DNA from: Longibacter salinarum | GTDB taxonomy: Bacteria; Bacteroidota; Rhodothermia; Rhodothermales; Salinibacteraceae | Direction of reading: 5' to 3' | Assembly (NCBI RefSeq): GCF_002554795.1 | Contig: NZ_PDEQ01000002.1 | Coordinates: forward strand, 434,001 to 498,000 | Length of the DNA stretch: 64,000 nucleotides | Part shown: positions 27,857-28,600 of the stretch, piece by piece | How the letters are laid out: each line of letters begins with the position of its first letter | Position numbering within the stretch: position 1 is the first letter of the stretch | Notes under the pieces: model-generated | Told to the model about the DNA's origin: nothing | Databases searched by the model: none | The model's input: the letters and a program-made list of their open reading frames with translations, nothing else | Position numbers and translations under genes: made by a program

Positions 27857-27883
27857 AAACGGGGCAACTCCACTATTGAACCA

Positions 27884-27911
27884 CCACCGTCGCACGGCCG
27901 TGCGACGGTGG
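27884..27911. other. perfect 28-bp palindrome
   Basis: The half-site CCACCGTCGCACGG is followed directly by its exact reverse complement. On the plus strand it is followed by TTCGTCTTG rather than a T-run. It may be a terminator-like hairpin, a protein site or a repeat; the sequence does not decide. Confidence 0.6.
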
Positions 27912-27917
27912 TTCGTC

Positions 27918-27952
27918 TTGAACCCTGAACGTTGAACCCTGAACGTTGAACC
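27918..27952. repeat. intergenic word-like repeat (TTGAACCCTGAACG, 2.5 copies)
   Basis: The 14-bp word TTGAACCCTGAACG is present twice in perfect tandem (27918-27931 and 27932-27945), plus a half copy TTGAACC. Thirteen of its 14 bases recur at 28813-28825 on the other side of the chorismate mutase gene. Confidence 0.75.
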
Positions 27953-27956
27953 AAAC

Positions 27957-27985
27957 TTGACATCCGTGCTGCTTTCTCGTACCGT
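27957..27985 (+). promoter_or_regulatory. candidate sigma-70 promoter for the chorismate mutase leader
   Basis: A consensus TTGACA (27957-27962) is followed, at 17 bp, by TACCGT (27980-27985), which keeps the T, A and T positions of a -10 box. Transcription would start close to the ATG at 27995, so the leader message would be nearly leaderless. The -10 match is poor and the call is tentative. Confidence 0.3.
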
Positions 27986-27994
27986 GGTATCAAC

Positions 27995-28147
27995 ATGAAA
28001 GCAATCGACCTCCCAACCGCCTGCCCCCAACTGGGCACTGAAGACGCAACGGCTGCTGCCGCTGCACTGGGATCGTACGCATATGCCTTTATCTTTTTTG
28101 GCTATGCGTATTTTTATTTTTATGCGACCTCAACCGGCGGCTTGTAG
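27995..28147 (+). CDS. candidate Phe/Tyr leader peptide (attenuator peptide), 50 aa
   Basis: The frame runs from ATG (27995) to TAG (28145-28147) and encodes 50 residues. The first half is ordinary (MKAIDLPTACPQLG, then an Ala run). Residues 28-43 read YAYAFIFFGYAYFYFY: 11 of 16 are Phe or Tyr. All five Phe codons are TTT and five of the six Tyr codons are TAT, while neighbouring genes favour TTC and TAC. The stop codon lies 30 bp before a strong terminator and 135 bp before the chorismate mutase start, the enzyme that commits chorismate to Phe and Tyr. The peptide therefore has the composition and place of a translated sensor of Phe/Tyr-tRNA charging, as in pheA leaders. Its start codon lacks a Shine-Dalgarno sequence. 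The role is inferred from layout. Confidence 0.7.
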   Translation: MKAIDLPTACPQLGTEDATAAAAALGSYAYAFIFFGYAYFYFYATSTGGL

Positions 28148-28185
28148 GCTTTCTGTTTTCATACCCACATGCTACGACCCGCCGG
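28134..28185 (+). promoter_or_regulatory. candidate antiterminator helix of the Phe/Tyr attenuator
   Basis: CCGGCGG at 28134-28140, in the last codons of the leader ORF, is complementary to CCGCCGG at 28179-28185, which is most of the 5' arm of the terminator. A ribosome stalled at the Phe/Tyr codons (28088-28123) would leave 28134-28140 free to pair and disrupt the terminator. A ribosome reaching the stop at 28145 would cover it and allow termination. The pairing is seen in the sequence; the mechanism is inference. Confidence 0.6.
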
Positions 28186-28210
28186 CCGCCAGGCCCGCGG
28201 GTTTTTTTTG
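28177..28210 (+). terminator. intrinsic terminator inside the chorismate mutase leader
   Basis: ACCCGC and an inner GGCC pair with GGCC and GCGGGT around a four-base loop (GCCA), giving a 10-bp GC-rich stem with single-base bulges, followed by eight Ts (28202-28209). It lies 73 bp before the chorismate mutase ATG and after no gene other than the leader ORF, so its natural role is attenuation. Confidence 0.8.
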
Positions 28211-28282
28211 TTTGTGGGCCTGTCGCACCGGTCGAGCGGCGTCGTCTGCGCCTCCATCGACCCTGTTTACGCACTCCTCACC

Positions 28283-28600
28283 ATGTCTTCTTCAAGTACC
28301 CCGCTTCGTGACATCCGTTCGCGCATCGATCAGCTCGATCGAGCGATTGTCGAACTCTTGGCCGAGCGTCAGTCGGCCGTCGATGACATCGCCGACATCA
28401 AGGAGCAAAAAAACGACAATGTCCGTGACCCCGACCGCGAATCACAGCTGATGGATCGCCTCCGTGGGATCGCCCGCGACCACGACGTCTCTCCCGACCT
28501 CGTCGAGGACCTCTTCGGCTCAATCATCGCGCACAGCGTTGATCGACAAAACGACCGCCGAGACGACGCCCGGCCGTCTCGGCTCCGGAAGGTCGGGTGA
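28283..28600 (+). CDS. chorismate mutase, AroQ class
   Basis: The ATG at 28283 (MSSSSTPLRDIRSRID) is chosen; the frame upstream runs through the terminator. The product is 105 aa, an all-helical single-domain AroQ protein. It has the typical LRDIRSRIDQLDRAIVELLAER first helix with its catalytic Arg, a middle VDDIADIKEQKNDNVRDPDRESQL with a Lys and Arg, and a last helix ending VEDLFGSIIAHSVDRQ. It converts chorismate to prephenate, the branch step to Phe and Tyr, in the cytoplasm. A PchB-type isochorismate lyase is less likely but shares the fold. The leader peptide and terminator upstream suggest expression is attenuated by Phe/Tyr supply. The tail (DRRDDARPSRLRKVG) is basic. Confidence 0.88.
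   Translation: MSSSSTPLRDIRSRIDQLDRAIVELLAERQSAVDDIADIKEQKNDNVRDPDRESQLMDRLRGIARDHDVSPDLVEDLFGSIIAHSVDRQNDRRDDARPSRLRKVG

Follow-up and report, generated by a model that had tools for sequence, protein, structure and literature searches.

A predicted phenylalanine/tyrosine leader attenuator in front of chorismate mutase in Longibacter salinarum and its relatives

Introduction

In Gammaproteobacteria, the pheA and pheST leaders are attenuators that respond to phenylalanine through the translating ribosome. Leaders carrying codons for more than one amino acid precede ilvGMEDA (Ile/Val/Leu) and thr (Thr/Ile). The pheST leader attenuator is also cited in PMC1262725. In Streptomyces (Actinobacteria), trpL and leuL are leaderless leader peptides (PMC8079986). 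According to Naville and Gautheret (2010), leader peptide systems were known only in Proteobacteria and Actinobacteria, with Firmicutes added (PMC2965389). A transcriptome study of Flavobacterium reports strong clues that amino-acid operons are preceded by leader peptides acting in attenuation (PMC9723704). Neither a leader peptide case for Salinibacter or Rhodothermota nor a Phe/Tyr leader outside the classical cases was found in the literature searched, in which subscription journals are thinly covered, so that neither absence is proven.

The locus described here lies in a 64-kb stretch of Longibacter salinarum DNA, referred to as the window, upstream of a chorismate mutase (CM) gene. It resembles pheA and pheST in that a leader ORF rich in codons for the product and then a terminator stand before the gene, with pairings 2:3 and 3:4 as alternatives. 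Unlike these, it has mixed Phe and Tyr codons, its target is a monofunctional CM or a CM-PDT-DAHPS fusion, and it occurs in an unrelated lineage with a long leader, a 5′ UTR predicted to be nearly absent and no Rfam leader match. Its logic is that of the trp operon leader (trpL), with different codons and target; its Trp counterpart is found upstream of trpE, both in this genome and elsewhere in the family. As at ilvGMEDA and thr, one leader would serve several end products of a branched pathway, but here the two products would be those of the chorismate-to-prephenate branch. The leader start codon is at or near the transcription start, as in Streptomyces trpL and leuL, although here this is only predicted from promoter spacing and the leader comes from another phylum.

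Results and Discussion

The CM downstream of the leader is the sole CM match in the genome of the window, and is a separate protein at the Phe/Tyr branch point. The upstream gene, argS, is divergent and on the opposite strand. The terminator between the two genes (28178-28209) thus ends no upstream gene of the plus strand and acts only on RNA begun between argS and CM.

Table 1. Elements of the chorismate mutase leader region (positions in the window)
Feature	Position	Strand	Details
-35 box TTGACA, leader promoter	27957..27962	+	sequence; family comparison
-10 box TACCGT	27980..27985	+	17 bp from -35, 9 nt before leader ATG; spacing near-constant in relatives
Leader peptide ORF	27995..28147	+	50 codons, MKAIDLPTACPQLGTEDATAAAAALGSYAYAFIFFGYAYFYFYATSTGGL, stop TAG (28145-28147); homologous leaders in 17 relatives
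Sensor codons (5 Phe + 6 Tyr)	28076..28123	+	Phe/Tyr-rich block at the same place in relatives; last Tyr codon 28121-28123
Candidate pause hairpin inside the sensor codons	28076..28110	+	28076-28087 with 28100-28110; 79% of cells paired
Segment 2, CCGGCGG, end of leader, antiterminator 5′ strand	28134..28140	+	pairs with 28179-28185
Segment 3, CCCGCCGGCC, terminator 5′ arm and antiterminator 3′ strand	28178..28187	+	sequence, fold, alignment
Segment 4, GGCCCGCGGG, and eight Ts, terminator 3′ arm and T-run	28192..28209	+	arm 28192-28201, Ts 28202-28209; fold; pairing in relatives
Chorismate mutase type II, AroQ, 105 aa, regulated gene	28283..28600	+	Pfam CM_2, 5.8e-23

Within the leader ORF, 11 of the 16 residues of YAYAFIFFGYAYFYFY are Phe or Tyr. 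All five Phe codons of this block are TTT and five of the six Tyr codons are TAT. T-ending codons thus make up 10 of the 11, whereas 29 genes of the window use TTT at 31% and TAT at 25% (P = 2e-5). When the 18 leaders of the family were pooled (TTT 49, TTC 21, TAT 65, TAC 19), the bias was weaker but still present. A search of all six frames of the 64-kb window revealed no other non-overlapping 16-residue stretch with at least eight Phe/Tyr, and random 64-kb sequences of the same composition reached a maximum of only 5-7. The Phe/Tyr density of the leader is not due to chance.

The promoter boxes are placed almost uniformly with respect to this ORF. In every family locus except L025, the -35 hexamer (TTGATA once) is found 38-39 nt before the leader ATG, with 17-18 nt between the boxes and 9-10 nt from the -10 box to the ATG; the -10 box of L024 is weaker. 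This near-constant distance confirms the start codon of the leader. Transcription probably starts 2-4 nt before the ATG, which would make the 5′ UTR just two to four bases long. Two repeated or symmetrical elements are present further upstream. A TTGAACCCTGAACG-like intergenic repeat (27900-27953), with 46 more matches in the genome, ends just before the leader promoter, and a perfect 30-bp palindrome, ACCACCGTCGCACGGCCGTGCGACGGTGGT, is located at 27883-27912, ~45 bp upstream of the -35 box.

The terminator begins 30 nt after the leader stop and ends 73 nt before the CM ATG. Owing to one C-C mismatch, its stem has 9 pairs over 10 positions. The folding energy of the terminator (28160-28201) is -19.1 kcal/mol and that of the antiterminator (28134-28187), in which CCGGCGG of segment 2 pairs with the complementary CCGCCGG in segment 3, is -21.4 kcal/mol. 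An extended antiterminator, with the stop-codon region pairing with CTACG, was also considered; it pairs well in the window and in a small number of relatives, but does not hold generally. The preliminary description of this DNA had reported the 50-codon ORF with its aromatic block and TTT/TAT preference, the hairpin with eight Ts and the pairing between leader end and terminator arm; all coordinates and counts were reproduced exactly in the sequence, and the pairing proved to be conserved as well.

The position of segment 2 relative to the sensor codons is important for the proposed regulation. When a codon occupies the A site, the front of the ribosome is ~12 nt past the first base of that codon. 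With the last Tyr codon in the A site, the front is expected at ~28133, just short of segment 2, whereas a ribosome at the stop (28145) would cover this segment. With this footprint, the spacing is such that stalling would free segment 2 and arrival at the stop would cover it.

We consider it very probable that the CM leader is a ribosome-mediated transcription attenuator. This interpretation, on the logic of pheA and trp and with both products of the branch sensed, had been put forward in the preliminary description and is supported by the comparison of relatives given below. The course of events that we infer is as follows. Transcription would begin just upstream of the leader ATG, and a ribosome following RNA polymerase would translate the leader. 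A shortage of Phe-tRNA or Tyr-tRNA would make this ribosome stall in the aromatic block; segment 2 would then be free to pair with segment 3, the terminator would be prevented from forming, and CM would be transcribed. With an ample supply of both charged tRNAs, the ribosome would reach the stop and cover segment 2, segment 3 would pair with segment 4, and transcription would end near 28209.

Relatives were gathered using the CM protein, and in family f1 this CM type is carried by 18 loci (L009-L026, the window and 17 relatives). All 18 have a leader ORF in which a Phe/Tyr-rich block lies towards the end, and a GC-rich terminator follows the leader stop by ~24-37 nt in each. Complementarity between the leader-end segment and the 5′ arm of the terminator is likewise seen in 18/18, with one mismatch in L017, where a single substitution breaks the 2:3 helix. 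T-runs are poor in two loci, L014 (GTGTT) and L024 (CTTTCTT). Thus, leader, terminator and antiterminator segment are retained throughout f1, and in further families; a loss of the aromatic codons or of the terminator in relatives, which would have spoken against the proposal, did not occur.

Across the 18 loci of alignment A1, 97% of cells are paired in the terminator helix. For the 2:3 helix the figure is 95%, compared to 14-55% when the partner was slid. Its pairs are mostly invariant; two carry double changes and 21/500 shuffles scored equally high, so that covariation is thin. At L024, segment 3 is changed from CCGCCGG to CCGTCGG, segment 2 from CCGGCGG to CCGATGG and segment 4 from CCGGCGG to CCGACGG. 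These changes match across all three segments, and as a result both alternative helices survive, which speaks for selection acting on the RNA. A protector helix (1:2) for an untranslated leader could form between segment 2 and a CCGCC close to the start of the leader in 88% of cells, with covariation not above that of shuffles. The hairpin inside the sensor block is paired in 79% of cells compared to 23-50% with the partner slid, and five of its pairs are changed on both sides among the relatives. It may represent a pause hairpin which lets the ribosome catch up.

A comparison of close leader pairs did not reveal a strong excess of synonymous changes. Such a result is expected if the sequence of the leader peptide is mostly free, and does not by itself prove translation.

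Aromatic leaders with terminators are also found in families f10, f12 and f13 of the same order, where the downstream gene is a long fusion (L027, L029, L030 and L052-L055 are loci of this kind). Pfam analysis of one f13 and one f12 member identified CM, prephenate dehydratase, ACT and DAHP synthase domains; the f10 gene was classed as a fusion by length only. At four of the six f13 loci the aromatic block also contains Trp (GYWF). This is suggestive, in a single clade, of a fit to an enzyme which includes the DAHP synthase domain of the common pathway. The CCGGCGG of segment 2 is read as GCC-GGC-GGN (Ala-Gly-Gly) in f1, as Thr-Gly-Gly in the window, and as CCG-GCG-GGC (Pro-Ala-Gly) at the f13 fusion loci. 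Since the reading frame differs between f1 and f13, it is the RNA and not the peptide that is kept.

Across 245 genomes of the class, a pattern combining segments 2, 3 and 4 with the T-run was matched 10 times, all 10 at a CM-leader locus, and had no match when reversed as a control; this, too, speaks for selection on the RNA. The window is not matched by it because its segment 4 is CCCGCGGG. Among the other CM types of the class that were sampled, those with the N-terminus WRDRIDALDRAI and the CM fusions of other orders, the leader is absent.

The region between terminator and CM start was also considered as a site of control. At L010-L023 it contains a third copy of the segment, CCGGYGGG, with some compensating changes, and this copy may gate translation. 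One can envisage two levels of regulation, in which the Phe/Tyr leader, nearly leaderless itself, controls termination and the third copy gates translation, either by competing for segment 3 or by closing the CM start; we regard this arrangement as rather unlikely. Control mainly at translation, with the leader ribosome making the CM start more or less accessible and with a secondary role for the hairpin and T-run, is very improbable. The third copy, found in most relatives, can indeed pair with bases before the CM ATG (76% of cells compared to 39-56% slid, with one pair in CG, UA and GC forms), but this pairing is not visible in the sequence of the window itself, and the terminator is better conserved. 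A rival pairing of the bases at the CM start with a post-terminator GTGTGGG was discarded, as it showed no covariation and was not clear in the window.

A slightly smaller chance is left for the ORF being a real small membrane protein with a hydrophobic Phe/Tyr-rich helix, the hairpin being its own terminator and CM having its own start. In favour of this, the aromatic residues could make up a membrane helix, and the f1 leaders show fair conservation of the motif (L)GYAY(V/F)YFY. However, what the fusion-locus leaders have in common with those of f1 is limited to aromatic density and the segment-2 nucleotides and does not extend to the peptide. The terminator arm has its complement in segment 2, the nucleotides of which are also read in another frame. 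Moreover, the leader is always found directly before CM or a CM fusion, and the segment pattern nowhere else in the 245 genomes. Although premature terminators serve many sensors, the idea that a T-box, a riboswitch or a protein-bound attenuator acts on this terminator, with the aromatic ORF incidental, can practically be dismissed, as an Rfam search of the element gave no T-box, riboswitch, Phe_leader or other leader-family match up to E = 5, and no property of the loci is as constant as the aromatic codon block, while the 5′ part of the leader RNA varies.

For attenuation by the translating ribosome, the mechanism is classical; what seems to be new is the dual sensing of Phe and Tyr at CM, together with the presence of such a leader in this lineage. 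The preliminary description knew of no such case in a Rhodothermota-like genome. This part is reasonable, with none in the literature searched. Only the degree of interest attached to it was overstated, as leader attenuation was already suspected for Flavobacterium, which belongs to the neighbouring Bacteroidota (PMC9723704), and the logic is that of the classical systems. A sensor of two amino acids would match the place of CM in the pathway. The loci also form a comparative set for asking whether such attenuators are passed on by descent or originate again and again, and for studying attenuation on a leader mRNA that is predicted to be almost leaderless.

Other amino-acid genes were inspected for similar leaders. 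No aromatic leader with a terminator was found at prephenate dehydratase, prephenate dehydrogenase or type II DAHP synthase in this genome and one relative, and no leader at hisG in the same two genomes or at LeuA-type genes in the relative. At trpE of the window's genome (L083, G000:C6:292862-293302), an upstream leader with WRWWW is followed by a terminator, and the segment CGGGTCAAGGG pairs with CCCTTGACCCG at the terminator. A Trp-rich leader and a terminator are present at most trpE loci of the family, and the conserved trpE leader is predicted to be a trp attenuator. Both enzymes that draw on chorismate, CM and trpE, are thus predicted to be attenuated, which would place textbook attenuation at both exits of chorismate, with Phe/Tyr at CM and Trp at trpE. 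A Trp-codon leader (e.g. MANAINNTTWRWWWPGLRVKGCACFHLASE), a terminator and a complementary segment, conserved in most members of the family, were observed before trpE in the set L083, L084 and L099-L120.
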